From positions 1 to 64,000 of the forward strand of contig JAKZMJ010000002.1 in NCBI GenBank assembly GCA_030491005.1: DNA of 64,000 nt, in the 5' to 3' direction. Shown piece after piece: positions 7,504 to 62,457 of this stretch. Each line of letters opens with the position of its first letter. Position 1 is the stretch's first letter. The position numbers and the translations under genes are program-made. The notes under the pieces are model-generated. The model made no database searches and was not told the origin of the DNA. It saw only the letters and a program-made list of their open reading frames with translations. The stretch is from Sulfurospirillum sp. (lineage in GTDB: Bacteria; Campylobacterota; Campylobacteria; Campylobacterales; Arcobacteraceae).

Positions 7504-7530
7504 TTAGCACTTTTGCTAGTATATTGCTAA
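7504..7530 (+). promoter_or_regulatory. Upstream CIRCE-like HrcA operator
   Basis: TTAGCACTT, 9 bases, TATTGCTAA. The CIRCE consensus is TTAGCACTC-N9-GAGTGCTAA, so the arms have one and two mismatches with exact 9-base spacing. It lies just upstream of the -35 box of the hrcA promoter. Confidence 0.6.
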
Positions 7531-7536
7531 AAAGTA

Positions 7537-7557
7537 CTTGACAAATACTCACTCAAT
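7537..7557 (+). promoter_or_regulatory. HAIR-like HspR operator overlapping the -35 box
   Basis: CTTGACA, 7 bases, ACTCAAT. The HAIR consensus bound by HspR is CTTGAGT-N7-ACTCAAG; the arms have two and one mismatches. It covers the -35 hexamer. HspR itself is not in this window. Confidence 0.5.
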
Positions 7558-7567
7558 AGTGTATAAT
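7538..7567 (+). promoter_or_regulatory. Sigma-70 promoter of hrcA-grpE-dnaK
   Basis: A perfect TTGACA (7538-7543) and a perfect TATAAT (7562-7567) are separated by 18 bases. This is the strongest promoter match next to a heat-shock operon in the window and lies between two CIRCE-like operators. Confidence 0.8.
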
Positions 7568-7571
7568 CATT

Positions 7572-7598
7572 TTAGCAGTTCAATAATATGAGTGCTAG
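7572..7598 (+). promoter_or_regulatory. CIRCE operator for HrcA
   Basis: TTAGCAGTT, 9 bases, GAGTGCTAG, close to the CIRCE consensus with exact spacing. It begins 5 bases after the -10 box, so bound HrcA would cover the transcription start, as in classical CIRCE control. Confidence 0.8.
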
Positions 7599-11023: not shown

Positions 11024-11035
11024 TACTCTACTTCA
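11011..11035 (+). terminator. Hairpin across the dnaK stop codon
   Basis: An 11-bp perfect stem (TGAAGTAGAGT with ACTCTACTTCA) and a 3-base loop span the dnaK TAA. It ends on the A of the next ORF's ATG. There is no T-run, so it may be an RNA-stabilising or attenuating hairpin rather than a full terminator. Confidence 0.5.
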
Positions 11036-11319
11036 TGCAAACTTTAGTATTTTTATTAATAATATTTTTAATTGTAATTTTTTCTATTTTACTTTATTTT
11101 AAAACCAAGCATTCAAGACTTGATAAGTTCAATAAAGGACAATGTCCAAACTGCAATGATAAAACAAAAATCTTTTTTGATAAAAATACTAATACTACCT
11201 TTGAGCATGAAATTATCACAAAAAAATTACTTAAAAACGATAGATGCTCTGGCACTATTGAAATACAATATCAATGTAAAACTTGCAAAATCAAAGAAGT
11301 ACATCAAATATCTAATTAA
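11035..11319 (+). CDS. Small membrane protein with zinc-ribbon-like cysteines
   Basis: A 94-aa protein of unknown function. An N-terminal hydrophobic helix (residues 2-23) is followed by a cytosolic domain with two CxxC pairs, CPNC near residue 38 and CKTC near residue 84, which suggests a zinc ribbon. The start codon lies only 12 bases after the dnaK stop and directly at the foot of a hairpin, so no ribosome site is visible. It could be read through from the dnaK operon at low level. Confidence 0.6.
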   Translation: MQTLVFLLIIFLIVIFSILLYFKTKHSRLDKFNKGQCPNCNDKTKIFFDKNTNTTFEHEIITKKLLKNDRCSGTIEIQYQCKTCKIKEVHQISN

Positions 11320-11389: not shown

Positions 11390-13963
11390 ATGAATGATAA
11401 GTTTATTAATGGTTCAAAGTGGGTCAGATTTGATTGTCATTTACATACAAAAGAAGATATTGAATTTGATAAAAATAGTTATGATAATTTTTTTAAAGAG
11501 TATAACGATAAATTAATTCAAAAAGATATTAATGTAGCAGTTATTACAAATCATAATAAATTTAATAGACATGAGTTTAGACAATTACAAAAAGAGTTTA
11601 AAAATGGTTACTTATTAGCAGGTGTTGAACTAAATATAAAAGAAGGTGCTAATGGTATTCATACTTTAATTGTATTTAATGAAAAATGGTATGCAAATCA
11701 AACAGATACAGATTTTATAAATAAGTTTTTAAACTCTGTATCAGAAGGACAAGAAAACTTTTCTACAAATAATGGCAAAACTAATACTGACTTTATAGAA
11801 ACAATTAAAAAGTTAGAAGTATATAAAACATATGGTAGAGATTACTTCATTATATTAGCTCATGTTGATAACAACAGTGGATTTTTTAAAGAGTTAAAAG
11901 GTGGAATGATAAAAGCGTTATCAGATAATCCATTATTTTACAAAAATGTACTAGCCTTACAAAAATCTAAAACGAATATTAGTAGAGAACATTTAAAAAA
12001 AGAATTAGCACTTATAGAAGGTTCAGACCCTAAGAATATAAAAGAGATTGGACAAGGCAAAGAATCATATATTAAAATTGGTGCTTATAATTTTGAAGCA
12101 GTTAAATTTGCATTACAGGATAAAGAATATAGAGTAAAAAAAGAACTCCCTGAAACTAAAAATTCATATATAAAATCAATCTCTTTTAATGGTGGTAAAT
12201 TAGATGGACAAACTATTGAATTATCATCATCTATGAATAATTTTGTAGGAGTAAGAGGTAGTGGAAAATCTTCTATTATAGAAGCTATTAGATATGGATT
12301 AGATTTAGAATTTTCGCCTATCAATGCAGATTATAAATATAAAAATAATTTAATAGAAAAATTATTAGGTAGTGCGGGAAAAATAACTATAAAAGCTTTT
12401 GATAATCGTAATAATGAATATTCTATTGAACGAGTTTATGGGCATTGTGTAGAGATTAAAAAAGACAATGAATTAATCAATATTAATATTTCTCCCTCTA
12501 TATTAAAAAAACCACTTTATTTTGGACAAAAAGATTTATCAAGTTATAAAGATGGATATGAAAATGATTTAATAAATAAATTTATTGGCGATAAAACAAA
12601 AGATATTAAATCTAAAATTGATATGAAAAAACAAGAAATAAAATCATTATTAGAAAATATAAAGAAATATGACAATTTAGATGATAAAAAAGAAGAAGTT
12701 GAAAAAAAGATAGAAGAATTAAAATTAAAGATTGATGAGTTTAAAAAGCACAATATTGAAGATAAGTTAAAAAAACAGATTGAATTTAATAAAGATGATT
12801 CAAATTTCTCAAATATTATTAAGGATTTACAAGAGTTTGAAAATGACGCAAATAGTTTTATAAAAACTTATGAAGAAAATAACTTTTTTGAGAATTTAAA
12901 ACGGTATAAATCTAAAGAAAATCAAGATATATTTAATAGTCTTTATGCAATTATTGATACAAGTAAAGATACATTTTTAAATATTTCTACACAGTTAAAT
13001 ACTTTAACAGATAGTTTTAAAGATATAAATTCTTTACATAGTTCTTTCGTAAATAAATACAAACAATTTAATGATACATTTTTAGAAATCCAAAGAAATA
13101 TTAATCTTCCTGATAACTTAAGAGCAGATAATTTTATAAATTATACTAAAACATTAAATACTCAAAACTTAATGTTAAAAGAAATTGCAAAACTATCAAA
13201 TTTAAAAAATAATTTAAGAAATATTTTAACAGAACTAATCTCTGAGTTAAATAATTTATATTTAGATGAATTTAGATTAATTGAAGATGGAATAAAGTCT
13301 ATAAATCAAAATAAATCGTCTATTGAATTAAAAGCAGAATTTAAAGGTGATAAAGACTTATATGAAAAGTATTTAAGAAATATTTTTAGTGGAAGTGGAT
13401 TAACAAAAGCTAACTATGAAAAACTTACACAATACAAAGATTGCATTGAAATATATAAAAACTTAAATAATATATCATTTGGTGGGGAAAAGCAAAAAAC
13501 ATTTAAAGAAAAATTTGTAAATTCACTTTCATCACTTCTAACTTTTCAAGTACCAAACAAAATAGAGATATTTTATAATAAAGAATTATTAGTAAATCAT
13601 TCACTAGGTCAGAGGGCATCAGCCTTAATTATATTCATTTTAACACAAAGAGATAATGATATAATCATTATTGACCAACCAGAAGATGATTTAGATAATC
13701 AGACAATTTATAAAGAAGTTATAGTAGAGTTGTTAAAGCTTAAAAATAAAACACAATTTATATTCGCAACGCATAATGCTAATATACCAGTACTAGGAGA
13801 TTGTGAACAAATAGTAGTGTGTAATTATGAAGAAAATAAAATTAATATAAAACTTGGTAGCATAGATAATCATGATATACAAGATAATATTATAAATATA
13901 ATGGAAGGTGGAGAAAAAGCCTTTAATAAAAGAAGGGATATATATAATTTATGGAAACATTAG
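11390..13963 (+). CDS. PHP-domain / SMC-like ABC ATPase (TrlF-type)
   Basis: A large protein of about 857 aa. The N-terminus is a PHP phosphoesterase-like domain with metal ligands visible as DCHLH (Asp15, His17, His19), TNHN (His55), GVE (Glu80) and LAHVD (His158). A Rad50/SMC-like ATPase follows: Walker A GVRGSGKSS near residue 287, a long coiled coil at about 380-480 and again near 560-660, an ABC-type signature LGQRAS near residue 737, and Walker B IIIIDQPEDD with Asp762 and Glu765. The layout matches proteins annotated as TrlF-family ATPases. An upstream TTG (11378) is in frame, but GGAG lies six bases before the ATG at 11390. It overlaps the next gene by 13 bases. A defence role is inferred only. 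Confidence 0.8.
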   Translation: MNDKFINGSKWVRFDCHLHTKEDIEFDKNSYDNFFKEYNDKLIQKDINVAVITNHNKFNRHEFRQLQKEFKNGYLLAGVELNIKEGANGIHTLIVFNEKWYANQTDTDFINKFLNSVSEGQENFSTNNGKTNTDFIETIKKLEVYKTYGRDYFIILAHVDNNSGFFKELKGGMIKALSDNPLFYKNVLALQKSKTNISREHLKKELALIEGSDPKNIKEIGQGKESYIKIGAYNFEAVKFALQDKEYRVKKELPETKNSYIKSISFNGGKLDGQTIELSSSMNNFVGVRGSGKSSIIEAIRYGLDLEFSPINADYKYKNNLIEKLLGSAGKITIKAFDNRNNEYSIERVYGHCVEIKKDNELININISPSILKKPLYFGQKDLSSYKDGYENDLINKFIGDKTKDIKSKIDMKKQEIKSLLENIKKYDNLDDKKEEVEKKIEELKLKIDEFKKHNIEDKLKKQIEFNKDDSNFSNIIKDLQEFENDANSFIKTYEENNFFENLKRYKSKENQDIFNSLYAIIDTSKDTFLNISTQLNTLTDSFKDINSLHSSFVNKYKQFNDTFLEIQRNINLPDNLRADNFINYTKTLNTQNLMLKEIAKLSNLKNNLRNILTELISELNNLYLDEFRLIEDGIKSINQNKSSIELKAEFKGDKDLYEKYLRNIFSGSGLTKANYEKLTQYKDCIEIYKNLNNISFGGEKQKTFKEKFVNSLSSLLTFQVPNKIEIFYNKELLVNHSLGQRASALIIFILTQRDNDIIIIDQPEDDLDNQTIYKEVIVELLKLKNKTQFIFATHNANIPVLGDCEQIVVCNYEENKINIKLGSIDNHDIQDNIINIMEGGEKAFNKRRDIYNLWKH

Positions 13964-15102
13964 AATTACTTGAAAAAATATCAAATGGAGAAGATAGTTA
14001 TACTCAGTTTAAAGAAGATATAACTAACAATGATAAATTGGCTTATGAACTTATGGCATTTTCTAATGCAAGAGGCGGAGTCTTAATTATTGGTATTGCA
14101 GATAGAACTGGTAACATTATTGGCTTAAGTGTTGCTGATATTGGTAGACTTAATCAAATGATTGGAAGTGTTATTCGAGATAAAATAAAACCATTAATAT
14201 ATCCAATAGTGACAATTAAAAATATTAGTGGTAATAAAATATTAGTTATTGAAGTTTCAGAAGGAATAAGTAAACCATATGATGTTAATGGAGTTTATTA
14301 CACTAAAGCAGGTAGTGATAAAAGAATAATTTCGCAAGAAGAACTTAGAAGATTATTTGCAGAATCAAAGAAATTGTATGCAGATGAAGAGATTGTAAAT
14401 GGAACAAATATTACAGATTTAAATCAACAGCTTTTTGACATTTATTTAGAAAAAGCAAATAAAAATATTTTTAGTAAGCTAAAAAAAGGTGAATTAAATC
14501 TTGCAACAATTTTAGAGAATCAAATGATTATGAAAAATAATCAATTAACACTGGCTGGAAATTTAATTTTTGGTATTAAACCACAACAATTAAATCCATC
14601 TTTTTTTATAAATTGTTGTTATTTTAATGGAAATGACACCTCTGTAAATAGATTCATTTCAAAACAAAGAATAAAAGGAACTTTTGAAAAGTTGTATGAT
14701 GATAGTCTTCGTTTTATCACAAGTAATTTACAAAATAAACAAGTAGAAGAAAATTTTAATTCAAACGGCGTTCCTGAAATATCTCATGAAATTATTGGAG
14801 AACTTCTTGTTAATGCCTTAATTCATAGAGACTACTATATAAATAGCTCTATAAAAATCTTTATTTTTCATAATAGATTGGAAATAATAAGTCCAGGAAA
14901 ATTAACTAACTCACTAACTATAGAAAATATCAAAAATGGTAGGTCTATTTGCAGAAATCCAATACTAGATTCTATTTGTGAAAATATTTTACCTTATAGT
15001 GGGTATGGAAGTGGAATAAAACGAGTTTTAAGTATAAATCCAGATGTTGAATTTATCAATGATATAAACAAAGAAGAATTCAAATGTATAATTCCAAGAT
15101 AG
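13951..15102 (+). CDS. Schlafen/AlbA_2 domain ATP-binding protein
   Basis: A 383-aa protein with an N-terminal AlbA_2 (Schlafen-type nucleic-acid) domain: SYTQFKED near residue 16, then LMAFSNARGGVLIIGIAD and YYTKAGSDKRIISQEELRRL. The C-terminal half is the divergent GHKL-like ATPase of the COG2865 group, with the N-box-like HEIIGELLVNALIHRDY near residue 280, NRLEIISPGKL near residue 310 and GYGSGIKRV near residue 350. It stops soon after that and lacks the winged-helix tail many relatives have. It overlaps the PHP-ATPase gene by 13 bases, so the two are one translational unit. Relatives are found as regulators and in anti-phage loci. Confidence 0.82.
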   Translation: METLELLEKISNGEDSYTQFKEDITNNDKLAYELMAFSNARGGVLIIGIADRTGNIIGLSVADIGRLNQMIGSVIRDKIKPLIYPIVTIKNISGNKILVIEVSEGISKPYDVNGVYYTKAGSDKRIISQEELRRLFAESKKLYADEEIVNGTNITDLNQQLFDIYLEKANKNIFSKLKKGELNLATILENQMIMKNNQLTLAGNLIFGIKPQQLNPSFFINCCYFNGNDTSVNRFISKQRIKGTFEKLYDDSLRFITSNLQNKQVEENFNSNGVPEISHEIIGELLVNALIHRDYYINSSIKIFIFHNRLEIISPGKLTNSLTIENIKNGRSICRNPILDSICENILPYSGYGSGIKRVLSINPDVEFINDINKEEFKCIIPR

Positions 15103-15110
15103 GATAAATT

Positions 15111-16205
15111 ATGTTTTATACAAATACCTTTATAATCTTCTTCGTACTTTTTATTAGTGCATGCTCAACTAAACAATATGATAAAAACTTTAAACAAATC
15201 TCACAGGCAAATTTAAAAGAAATTTCATTTGATGAAATAAATGGTTTTTATGAAGATGACTTAGAATTAGCTTTTAATGTTTTTAAAAAGTCTTGTATGA
15301 AAGCTAAAAGATATAAATTGTTTCATGATGTTTGTGAAAAAAGTAACTCAGATACAAATGCAAAAGATTTTTTTATTAAAAATTTTACACCTTATATGTT
15401 ATATAGTAAAAATAATAAAAATATTGGACTAATCACAGGATATTATGAACCCTTATTATATGGTAGTAAAATTAAAAATAATAGATATAAATATCCTATT
15501 TATAAAGTACCAAATGATTTAATTTCAGTTCACTTAGGTAGTATTTATCCCAAATTAAAAGATTATAGATTAAGAGGAAAGATAAAAAACAATAAGTTAA
15601 TTGCTTACGAAGAAAGAAAAAATATAAAATATAAATCTAATTTAGAAGTGATTACTTATGTTGATAATAAAATAGATTTATTTTTCTTGCATATTCAAGG
15701 TTCTGGAAAAGTAAAGCTTGATACAGGCGAAATAATTAATATAGCTTATGCAAATCAAAATGGTAGAAAATACTTTGCTATAGGAAAGTATTTTATAAAA
15801 AATAAGTTAATTAAAAGAAAAAATATATCACTTCAAAGTATCAAAAAATATTTATATGAACATCCTTTTGAAGTAGATAAAATATTAAATTTAAATAAAA
15901 GTTATGTTTTCTTTTCTCAAAGTTCTAAAAGTGCAACAGGTGCTTTAGGAGTTGAACTTACAGCAAAAAGAAATCTAGCAGTTGATAAAAAATATATTCC
16001 TTTAGGAATGCCTGTTTTTATTAATACAAATAATCCACAAAACAGACAAGATATTAATCGCTTAATGGTAGCATCTGATGTAGGTGGAGCCATTAAAGGG
16101 GAAATACGAGCAGATTTTTTTTGGGGACATGGAAAAGAAGCTGAGCATTTAGCAGGTCTTATGAAAGAAAAAGGAACATTAATCTTATTAATTCCTAAAA
16201 AATAA
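15111..16205 (+). CDS. mltA: Membrane-bound lytic murein transglycosylase A
   Basis: Cleaves peptidoglycan glycan strands to leave 1,6-anhydromuramic ends. The N-terminus is a lipoprotein signal with lipobox FISAC (Cys18), so it is probably anchored in the outer membrane. The MltA domain includes GLITGYYEPLLYGS and FFLHIQGSGKVKLDTGE. The C-terminal 3D domain has VASDVGGAIKGEIRADFFWG, which carries the catalytic Asp. It begins 8 bases after the Schlafen-like gene with AGGATAA before the ATG, so it may be read from the same transcript, although functionally unrelated. Confidence 0.93.
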   Translation: MFYTNTFIIFFVLFISACSTKQYDKNFKQISQANLKEISFDEINGFYEDDLELAFNVFKKSCMKAKRYKLFHDVCEKSNSDTNAKDFFIKNFTPYMLYSKNNKNIGLITGYYEPLLYGSKIKNNRYKYPIYKVPNDLISVHLGSIYPKLKDYRLRGKIKNNKLIAYEERKNIKYKSNLEVITYVDNKIDLFFLHIQGSGKVKLDTGEIINIAYANQNGRKYFAIGKYFIKNKLIKRKNISLQSIKKYLYEHPFEVDKILNLNKSYVFFSQSSKSATGALGVELTAKRNLAVDKKYIPLGMPVFINTNNPQNRQDINRLMVASDVGGAIKGEIRADFFWGHGKEAEHLAGLMKEKGTLILLIPKK

Positions 16206-41936: not shown

Positions 41937-42013
41937 TGGCGCGATTGAAGGGACTTGAACCCTCGACCTCCTGCGTGACAGGCAGGCGTTCTAACCAACT
42001 AAACTACAACCGC
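41937..42013 (-). tRNA. tRNA-Asp (GTC), copy 2
   Basis: A cloverleaf can be folded: acceptor GCGGTTG/CAATCGC, anticodon loop CTGTCAC reading GTC, T-loop GGTTCAAGTCC, and an encoded CCA. It is identical to the copy at 42377 and is the last gene of the array. Confidence 0.97.
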
Positions 42014-42022
42014 ACCTTATAA

Positions 42023-42097
42023 TGGTGATCCCTAGGGGATTTGAACCCCTATGGTTGGAATGAAAATCCAAAATCCTAACCATTAGATGAAGGGACC
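42023..42097 (-). tRNA. tRNA-Glu (TTC), copy 2
   Basis: Acceptor GGTCCCT/AGGGATC, anticodon loop TTTTCAT reading TTC, encoded CCA. Identical to the copy at 42197. Confidence 0.97.
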
Positions 42098-42100
42098 ACA

Positions 42101-42176
42101 TGGTGGTCGATAGAAGACTCGAACTTCTGACGTCTACCTTGTAAGGGTAGCGCTCTACCAACTGAGCTAATCGACC
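42101..42176 (-). tRNA. tRNA-Val (TAC), copy 2
   Basis: Acceptor GGTCGAT/ATCGACC, anticodon loop CTTACAA reading TAC, encoded CCA. Identical to the copy at 42535. Only three bases separate it from tRNA-Glu. Confidence 0.97.
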
Positions 42177-42196
42177 TAAAAAAATAAAACTTTATA

Positions 42197-42271
42197 TGGT
42201 GATCCCTAGGGGATTTGAACCCCTATGGTTGGAATGAAAATCCAAAATCCTAACCATTAGATGAAGGGACC
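42197..42271 (-). tRNA. tRNA-Glu (TTC), copy 1
   Basis: Same sequence and fold as the gene at 42023, anticodon TTC, encoded CCA. Confidence 0.97.
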
Positions 42272-42285
42272 ATAAAAACAAAAAT

Positions 42286-42361
42286 TGGTGACCCGTATTG
42301 GATTCGAACCAATGGCCACCTCCTTAAAAGGGAGATGCTCTACCAACTGAGCTAACAGGTC
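42286..42361 (-). tRNA. tRNA-Lys (TTT), copy 2
   Basis: Acceptor GACCTGT/ACGGGTC, anticodon loop CTTTTAA reading TTT, encoded CCA. Identical to the copy at 42626. Confidence 0.97.
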
Positions 42362-42376
42362 ACATAAATAAAGAAA

Positions 42377-42453
42377 TGGCGCGATTGAAGGGACTTGAAC
42401 CCTCGACCTCCTGCGTGACAGGCAGGCGTTCTAACCAACTAAACTACAACCGC
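42377..42453 (-). tRNA. tRNA-Asp (GTC), copy 1
   Basis: Same sequence as the gene at 41937, anticodon GTC, encoded CCA. Confidence 0.97.
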
Positions 42454-42534
42454 ACTTTATATACTAAGTCAAAATTTAACTTAGATGTCACTATTTTAAA
42501 CTTATACCAAAATACAAATTAATGTACAATCTAA

Positions 42535-42610
42535 TGGTGGTCGATAGAAGACTCGAACTTCTGACGTCTACCTTGTAAGGGTAGCGCTCTACCAACTGAG
42601 CTAATCGACC
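42535..42610 (-). tRNA. tRNA-Val (TAC), copy 1
   Basis: Same sequence as the gene at 42101, anticodon TAC, encoded CCA. An 81-base spacer separates it from the following tRNA-Asp, the longest in the array. Confidence 0.97.
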
Positions 42611-42625
42611 AAAATTAAAATTAAA

Positions 42626-42701
42626 TGGTGACCCGTATTGGATTCGAACCAATGGCCACCTCCTTAAAAGGGAGATGCTCTACCAACTGAGCTAACAGGT
42701 C
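42626..42701 (-). tRNA. tRNA-Lys (TTT), copy 1
   Basis: First gene of the array, about 30 bases after the -10 box. Same sequence as the gene at 42286, anticodon TTT, encoded CCA. Confidence 0.97.
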
Positions 42702-54788: not shown

Positions 54789-54887
54789 GGGGGGCATGTG
54801 ATCCTGGTGGACACCACAGGTTTCAACCCTGATTGGAGGTTTTTGTGTAAACGCCTCGCTAGGTTCGATTCCTAGGCCTTCTCGCCA
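54789..54887 (+). tRNA. selC: tRNA-Sec (TCA)
   Basis: A 99-base sequence with the features of tRNA-Sec: anticodon loop TTTCAAC reading TCA, a short D-loop TGGT, a long variable arm (GGAGGTTT ... ACGCCTC), T-arm CTAGG-TTCGATT-CCTAG and encoded GCCA. The 3' acceptor strand GCCTTCTC pairs with GGGGGGC over 7 bp including three G-T pairs; the eighth position would be T (54788) against C. The anticodon stem has only four good pairs. The adjacent divergent selA-selB supports the call. Confidence 0.85.
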
Positions 54888-61365: not shown

Positions 61366-62457
61366 TGTCAAGTTTCACCACGTTGTACCATTCCAAAAAC
61401 AATATCTTGAAACTCACTTGGTAAAATCTTAAATATTTCAGGTTTCGTTTGAAACCAACTTTGAACTGCATTAAATGGAGTTCTGACTTTTAATTCTTTT
61501 CTTAAAGAACCATGTCTTCTATTGAAGTTGTAGTATATCAAAAATTTATTTAAATCTTTTTTAACATCATCTATATTTTCATAGTCTTGGGCTTTGATTG
61601 TAGCATTTTTAATAGTTCCGTTTACTCTTTCTACCATTCCATTGGTTTGTGGTGTATATGGAGCTGTTAGTCTATGTTCTATACTATCTTCTTTACATTC
61701 TACATCAAACTTGTGATTACCACTTACAATTCCTTTGCCTCTTGCCCATTTATCTGTAAATTCCAATCCATTATCTGTTAAAATATGAGTTAAGTAAAAA
61801 GGAAAAAACTCTTTACAAACTTTTAGAAATTCAACTGCATTATTAGATGATTTGTTTTCATATACTTTGTAATATAGTAGCCTTGTAGCCCTGTCTATTG
61901 CTACAAATAGATAAAACTTTTGTTTATCAAACTTTGGTAAATAGGTTACATCTATATGCAAATATCCAGGTTCGTATTCTTTAAATTTCTTTGCTTTTTC
62001 TTTTTGTTCTTGTGGGACTCTATTTATATCAAATGCTTTTAGAGTTCTATAGATATTACTTCTATTTGCATTTGGGATAATATCAACCATTGTATCTGTT
62101 AAGTCATCTAGCTCCATCCAAGTCATTGTCCTAACTACTTTTATTAACTCTTTTTCTAAAGATGTTAAAGTTGTTTTTATATTATGTGGTCTTGAACTTT
62201 TATCTTCAATAAAATCCCTATCTTTCCATTTAGAGATAGTTTTAATATTTAGATTATAATTATTTGCTAATTCAACATTTGTTAAATTAGATTTCTGTAT
62301 TATTTCTCTTATGTGCTGGTTTGCTCTAGCATTAGAGTGATAGGTTTGTGACATATTTTAAATCCTTATGTGTTGTAAAGATTTTACACTTATGTTGTTT
62401 AATCTATCACTTTCTTATTTATGAAACTAGGCAACCATAACGTGGTGAAACTGGACA
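61366..62457 (-). mobile_element. IS481-family insertion sequence
   Basis: Bounded by inverted repeats TGTCAAGTTTCACCACGTT at 61366 and, on the other strand, TGTCCAGTTTCACCACGTT from 62457 (one mismatch). It is 1092 bases with one transposase. The flanks differ (an IS5 transposase on the left, an aat fragment on the right), and no target duplication is visible. Confidence 0.88.
61368..62354 (-). CDS. IS481-family transposase
   Basis: A 328-aa integrase-core transposase that looks complete. The N-terminal helix-turn-helix (TNVELANNYNLNIKTISKWK) is followed by the rve core with the DDE residues in YLHIDVTYLPKF, HILTDNGLEFT and TNGMVERVNGTIKNA, and the C-terminal NFNRRHGSLRKEL. It ends inside the inverted repeat. 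Confidence 0.92.
   Translation of the reverse strand: MSQTYHSNARANQHIREIIQKSNLTNVELANNYNLNIKTISKWKDRDFIEDKSSRPHNIKTTLTSLEKELIKVVRTMTWMELDDLTDTMVDIIPNANRSNIYRTLKAFDINRVPQEQKEKAKKFKEYEPGYLHIDVTYLPKFDKQKFYLFVAIDRATRLLYYKVYENKSSNNAVEFLKVCKEFFPFYLTHILTDNGLEFTDKWARGKGIVSGNHKFDVECKEDSIEHRLTAPYTPQTNGMVERVNGTIKNATIKAQDYENIDDVKKDLNKFLIYYNFNRRHGSLRKELKVRTPFNAVQSWFQTKPEIFKILPSEFQDIVFGMVQRGET

Follow-up and report, generated by a model that had tools for sequence, protein, structure and literature searches.

A TrlF-TrlG gene pair inserted behind the dnaK operon of Sulfurospirillum: a mosaic, candidate growth-arrest module

Introduction

Why does a gene for a PHP-domain ATPase, followed by one for a Schlafen-like protein, lie between the dnaK operon and mltA of a Sulfurospirillum genome? 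A preliminary description of this DNA had read the two as a nuclease/sensor pair acting on nucleic acid, of protein types that occur in defence islands. We followed this up in the window, the whole stretch of 64,000 nucleotides that was analyzed, and in related genomes. The pair has a published counterpart: in Photorhabdus laumondii, the trlR-trlF-trlG operon restricts growth at 36°C and is induced by temperature up-shift (PMC7554251).

Results

The two genes and their main features, all on the forward strand, are as follows.

11390..13963, + strand: trlF, ATG at 11390, 857 aa; PHP domain and Rad50/SMC-like ATPase with coiled coil
11438..11446, + strand: PHP HxH motif (H17, H19), kept in type A TrlFs and lost (LQVNP) in type B
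12245..12274, + strand: Walker A, VGVRGSGKSS (K293), from the alignment
12590..13459, + strand: coiled-coil insert, from sequence and alignment
13598..13624, + strand: ABC signature, HSLGQRASA, from the alignment
13661..13699, + strand: Walker B, IIIIDQPEDDLDN, from the alignment
13951..13963, + strand: 13-bp overlap of trlF and trlG, from ORF coordinates
13951..15102, + strand: trlG, ATG at 13951, 383 aa; AlbA_2 (Schlafen) and GHKL-like HATPase_c_4 domains, no wHTH tail
13987..14013, + strand: GEDSYTQFK Schlafen motif, E14 kept and second Glu replaced by Gln (Q19)
14101..14103, + strand: D51, equivalent of SLFN13 Asp248, from profile alignment to 5yd0
14845..15033, + strand: HATPase_c_4 domain of TrlG, from Pfam

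The first protein belongs to the TrlF family, matching NCBIfam NF045780 over aa 7-853 with 494.6 bits (E 9e-148), well above the cut-off of 350, and its start codon has GGAG immediately 5'. Pfam detects AAA_23 (2.5e-8), and PADLOC finds the N terminus to be Ppl-like (E 3e-37, aa 8-304). Walker A (K293), the SLGQ signature, Walker B (IDQPEDD), and the H-loop are all intact and are kept in close relatives, which bears out the ATPase motifs and coiled coil described previously; no CxxC zinc hook was seen in the insert by sequence or alignment. The claim that the PHP domain has all of its metal ligands is one short: HxH (H17, H19), NHN, E, H, H, and SD are present, but Lys (SDPK) replaces the final canonical His in type A TrlFs, the window copy included. 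In the second protein, Pfam identifies SLFN_AlbA_2 (PF04326; 7.8e-20, aa 14-126) and HATPase_c_4 (2.4e-13, aa 299-361) and no HTH, so the AlbA_2 and GHKL-like architecture without a winged-helix tail stands, as does the gene order at 11390-15102 with its 13-bp overlap (ORFs, NCBIfam, Pfam); other type A pairs overlap by 13-22 bp. The ATPase halves are under purifying selection (dN/dS 0.10-0.15), which together with the E-values excludes a chance origin of the domain matches. AlphaFold2 models from 7-row alignments have a mean pLDDT of 57 (TrlG) and 55 (TrlF).

With trlF followed directly by an AlbA_2-HATPase_c_4 trlG, the window pair is the TrlF-TrlG core of the Photorhabdus temperature-restriction operon, an identity that the preliminary description overlooked, along with the published genetics on the toxic protein. 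Nothing matching the Yersinia ruckeri 79-aa upstream HTH gene, the counterpart of trlR (79-aa HTH), was found within 1.5 kb upstream of trlF. The Photorhabdus TrlG suppressors are S16N, V35I, A36V, A75T, R80H, R126Q, A193D, S208*, Q249*, P318R/L, S331Y, N335D, G354V, and two IS insertions, while the larger trlF yielded none according to the authors (PMC7554251, Table 1). We count 16 distinct events in trlG, 12 of them missense, and 0 in trlF. Given an equal target per base, and with gene lengths that are approximate, the probability of all 16 falling in trlG is about 5e-9, and that for the 12 missense events alone 6e-7. As suppressors hit trlG only, TrlG is presumably the toxic part and TrlF unneeded for toxicity.

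To which Schlafens is TrlG related, and would it cleave RNA as they do? A TrlG profile matches the SLFN5/11/12/13/14 chains and places E14, Q19, and D51 on Glu205, Glu210, and Asp248 of SLFN13 (5yd0; correspondence counted by hand). All type A TrlGs read GEDSxxQ[FY]K, while other Schlafens read ExxxxE[FY]K. The window protein thus has the AlbA_2 domain of a Schlafen-type RNase, with E14-Q19-D51 in place of the Glu-Glu-Asp triad. In SLFN13, Glu205 and Glu210 mutants are inactive, E210A included (PMC5862951). With Gln in place of the second triad Glu, TrlG is unlikely to use canonical Schlafen chemistry, and the tRNA cleavage attributed earlier to the Schlafen domain appears doubtful, the replacement running throughout this TrlG clade.

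A second TrlF branch (L157, L158, L159, L160, L161, and L163) lacks the PHP HxH. Its members are partnered by E-E-D Schlafens or occur solo (after brxL, after hsdR, or beside IS elements). In type B pairs, then, the Schlafen E-E-D is kept and the PHP HxH lost, and this reciprocity with type A (HxH with E-Q-D) is suggestive only. In the Sulfurovum locus L088 (8001-10316), TrlF has two in-frame PHP deletions with ATPase and TrlG intact, reflecting either erosion or an assembly error. One live nuclease per pair was considered as a rule and rejected, being broken by L088 and by the solo type B TrlFs, which have neither catalytic site.

All 13 type A paired TrlGs lack a wHTH. Three of the four lone members of the TrlG clade are longer, two of these with a Pfam wHTH, and one is not longer; the Fisher value for tail versus pairing is 0.006, a figure that ignores relatedness. 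In the tree, the lone members nest inside the paired clade. The idea that tail loss always accompanies a TrlF partner was discarded, as the lone TrlG in L183 is tailless as well.

Two genes bound the pair in the window.

11035..11319, + strand: conserved gene for a 94-aa membrane/zinc-ribbon protein, next after dnaK, at the left edge of the insertion; in most pair-less relatives it is found between dnaK and mltA
15111..16205, + strand: mltA, right edge of the insertion

Placement between the dnaK operon and mltA had been described correctly, but it is the 94-aa gene that stands directly 3' of dnaK. From this gene to mltA the spacing is 3,791 bp in the window, whereas in 20 of 21 relatives of other genera an empty gap of 18-121 bp is found (902 bp in the remaining one), and TrlF-TrlG is therefore an insertion at this site rather than a core operon. 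Indeed, almost no relative has the pair: within the family, only 2 genomes among 104 carry true TrlF-TrlG, and these two belong to the window's genus and share the insertion site. Across the phylum (397 genomes), TrlF-family matches above the cut-off come from 21 genomes, 4 with an adjoining TrlG (window's genome counted). The 902-bp interval (L045:2718-3476) holds an unrelated dienelactone-hydrolase-like gene on the opposite strand, which indicates that the interval accepts insertions. The gene for the 94-aa protein itself is conserved behind dnaK across the family.

Placement behind the heat-shock operon is seen in the window's genus only. Upstream of hrcA-grpE-dnaK lie candidate control elements.

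7504-7530 and 7572-7598, + strand: two CIRCE-like elements, with 0.00 matches expected by chance
7538-7567, + strand: sigma-70 promoter (12/12), between the two CIRCE-like elements

A simple scan of the + strand finds no terminator-like site from dnaK to trlF, including the 70-bp gap before trlF. The hrcA-grpE-dnaK promoter is thus a possible source of read-through into trlFG, and we hypothesize that the pair may share heat-shock transcription in this genus. Elsewhere in the window (41937-42701 and 54789-54883) are a tRNA cluster with Asp, Glu, Val, and Lys tRNAs twice each and a tRNA-SeC gene beside selA/selB-like genes.

Pairs in other genomes are frequently embedded in DNA-modification systems. 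The order hsdR-TrlF-TrlG-hsdS is found in Klebsiella, Aeromonas, and 38 of 5,426 Escherichia coli genomes (in the one E. coli genome inspected, as cargo of a Tn7-like element), and hsdM-hsdS-TrlF-Schlafen-hsdR in Citrobacter and, from ORF order plus an hsdR match, Vibrio cidicii. Vibrio parahaemolyticus has pglX-TrlF-Schlafen-pglZ-brxL, and a TrlF-Schlafen pair adjoins BREX in E. coli. A Campylobacterales MAG encodes DrmD-like helicase, Mod, TrlF, TrlG, and Res (PADLOC MTase_III and REase_III), and a Leptotrichiaceae MAG TrlF-TrlG-Res at a contig end. In all, 8 of 16 distinct pair loci lie within or abut defence operons of the DNA-modification kind; the other 8, the window's included, are free-standing (Pseudomonas and Yersinia plasmids; Campylobacterota chromosomes, beside ordinary genes). 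The defence associations proposed for the pair are therefore supported by its embedding elsewhere in operons of type I, type III, and BREX systems, although the window copy has only the 94-aa gene and mltA as neighbors and lacks the R-M embedding of a PrrC-like guard. Scans of viral contigs for the pair gave no match.

The two genes occur together far beyond chance, as the earlier reading anticipated. In PLSDB, at identities of at least 38%, most TrlG matches listed adjoin an annotated TrlF, and two without that annotation proved to be pairs at the DNA level; chance pairing was rejected. Solo TrlF is common on plasmids, so TrlF also exists independently of TrlG.

The type III context has a parallel in the window's own genome, which contains two DrmD-like, Mod, Res operons whose Mod is 70-73% identical to that of the Campylobacterales MAG. 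Both Mod-Res slots hold another candidate defence cassette, PDC-M38A/B (AriA/AbiLi-like ATPase and DUF3226), instead of TrlF-TrlG. Among Campylobacterota loci with a related Mod (L183-L202), the slot contains a lone TrlG, another AlbA_2 protein, a CBASS cyclase with 2TM effector, Fic, GHKL with RhuM, or nothing. TrlF-TrlG is, in short, one among several interchangeable cassettes there. The two host operons, L172 (G000:C2:215709-225838) and L173 (G000:C23), are type III-like and near-identical, and in both a PemK-like gene precedes Mod. In L173 (8047-8448), Mod is broken by a transposase-type gene, the start of which is almost identical to that of a transposase-like gene in the window (61368-62354, MSQTYHSNAR...).

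Compared with a same-locus relative from its own genus, the window shows 89-96% identity in flanking DNA and mostly 78-96% in the TrlF ATPase halves, but 55-67% in PHP, 64-71% in part of the coiled coil, and 59-60% in AlbA_2. A tree of PHP domains joins the window to Sulfurovum L088 (100/100) and the same-locus relative to Sulfurimonas L090 and L093 (98/98). In that of TrlG, the partners change: the window pairs with L090 (100/100), and the same-locus relative with L088 and L091 (99/99). By their ATPase parts, all four fall into a single group (100/100). Every one of the four possible combinations of PHP and AlbA_2 alleles exists. PHP and AlbA_2 modules have thus recombined between lineages around conserved ATPases. 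Between the window and L088, PHP has a dN/dS of 0.08.

Discussion

We think it reasonably probable that the pair is a horizontally moving two-gene growth-arrest module of the abortive-infection type, often carried as R-M or BREX cargo in relatives, with TrlG the effector and TrlF its ATPase partner. Since relatives have the pair inside R-M and BREX operons, it is probably a phage-defence cassette. TrlG would be the toxic effector, as others have shown by genetics for the Photorhabdus homologue, and the TrlF ATPase, given the absence of trlF suppressors, may hold, sense, or license it. By analogy with PrrC and PARIS, the module probably responds to infection by phage or to a loss of restriction activity; once either is sensed, TrlG would arrest growth, plausibly via RNA or translation and likely by non-canonical Schlafen chemistry. 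In the window's genus, the position behind hrcA-grpE-dnaK may bring the module under heat-shock transcription. The shuffling of PHP and AlbA_2, with its well supported incongruent trees, looks like evolution under conflict and would support a defence role. Against that role, the window copy is not beside R-M genes, half of the pair loci are free-standing, viral contigs have no match, and plasmids often carry TrlF alone; we found no phage phenotype reported for TrlF-TrlG, the sole reported one being temperature-restricted growth.

The division of labor could be the reverse, with the TrlF PHP domain a real nuclease effector and TrlG, its Schlafen triad damaged, a nucleic-acid sensor or activator. 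The reciprocal type A and type B losses look as if one site per pair suffices, TrlF resembles the anti-phage protein Ppl, and the PHP dN/dS between the window and L088 is 0.08. We nevertheless regard this as unlikely, as Photorhabdus suppressors arose in trlG only, a lone TrlG without TrlF occupies a type III slot, L088 has two in-frame PHP deletions, and both sites are missing from solo type B TrlFs. Heat-induced growth arrest, in a stress or temperature response instead of phage defence, would explain both the induction of the Photorhabdus operon by up-shift with restriction at 36°C (PMC7554251) and the location of trlFG behind hrcA-grpE-dnaK, an operon preceded by CIRCE-like sites and separated from trlF by no terminator-like site. 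This is made improbable by the sporadic occurrence of the pair, its carriage on plasmids and a Tn7-like element, its embedding in R-M and BREX operons, module shuffling, and the restriction of the heat-shock location to one genus. Least credible, and by our estimate very improbable, is a transcription regulator with an ATPase: lone AlbA_2-HATPase-wHTH proteins annotated as regulators are akin to TrlG, and wHTH-tailed ones nest in its clade, but paired TrlGs lack the DNA-binding tail, and point mutations in both TrlG domains relieve growth restriction (PMC7554251).

Extending the growth-arrest module further, we offer a speculative picture that is rather unlikely to hold in full: TrlF-TrlG as an exchangeable cassette guarding type I, type III, and BREX systems, in which a Schlafen without its second Glu uses other chemistry or blocks translation without cleaving, PHP/AlbA_2 swaps change specificity or escape phage inhibitors, and one genus has wired the module to heat shock. 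An orphan temperature-restriction phenotype is now linked to restriction-modification and BREX operons, and TrlG is suggested as a prokaryotic Schlafen relative that halts growth without the canonical nuclease triad. The Mod-Res interval, as a slot for exchangeable effector cassettes, offers a direct route to find and test new ones. A bacterial-Schlafen preprint (10.1101/2025.07.24.666596, cited in PMC12839542) may overlap with parts of these findings.

Comparison with known systems

PrrC/EcoprrI, RloC, and PARIS (AriA-AriB) likewise combine an ABC/SMC-type ATPase with a growth-stopping effector and accompany R-M genes, a type Ic operon in the case of PrrC, which is encoded within it (PMC3874165, PMC2610378); however, their effector folds differ, and the window copy is not R-M linked. 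Ppl (PADLOC; NCBIfam NF042955) resembles TrlF in joining PHP to an SMC-like ATPase, with a match of E 3e-37 across aa 8-304, but at 155 bits against an NF042955 cut-off of 1000, TrlF is a separate family. With Schlafen RNases such as SLFN13, TrlG shares the AlbA_2 core with E14 and D51, and with BREX-linked bacterial Schlafens (PMC12839542) the GHKL ATPase; it differs from Schlafen RNases in having Gln19 for the second essential Glu, no wHTH tail, and one AlbA_2 lobe per chain. The Photorhabdus operon is confined to one site within its genus, flanked by dsbA and polA, whereas the window pair sits behind hrcA-grpE-dnaK, and the upstream neighbor of trlF is trlR in the former and the conserved 94-aa gene next to dnaK in the latter. 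In both, TrlF (annotated there as histidinol phosphatase) adjoins TrlG, distribution among genomes is sporadic, and the TrlG domains nearly coincide: AlbA_2 spans 14-128 in Photorhabdus and 14-126 in the window, and HATPase_c_4 spans 298-365 and 299-361, respectively.
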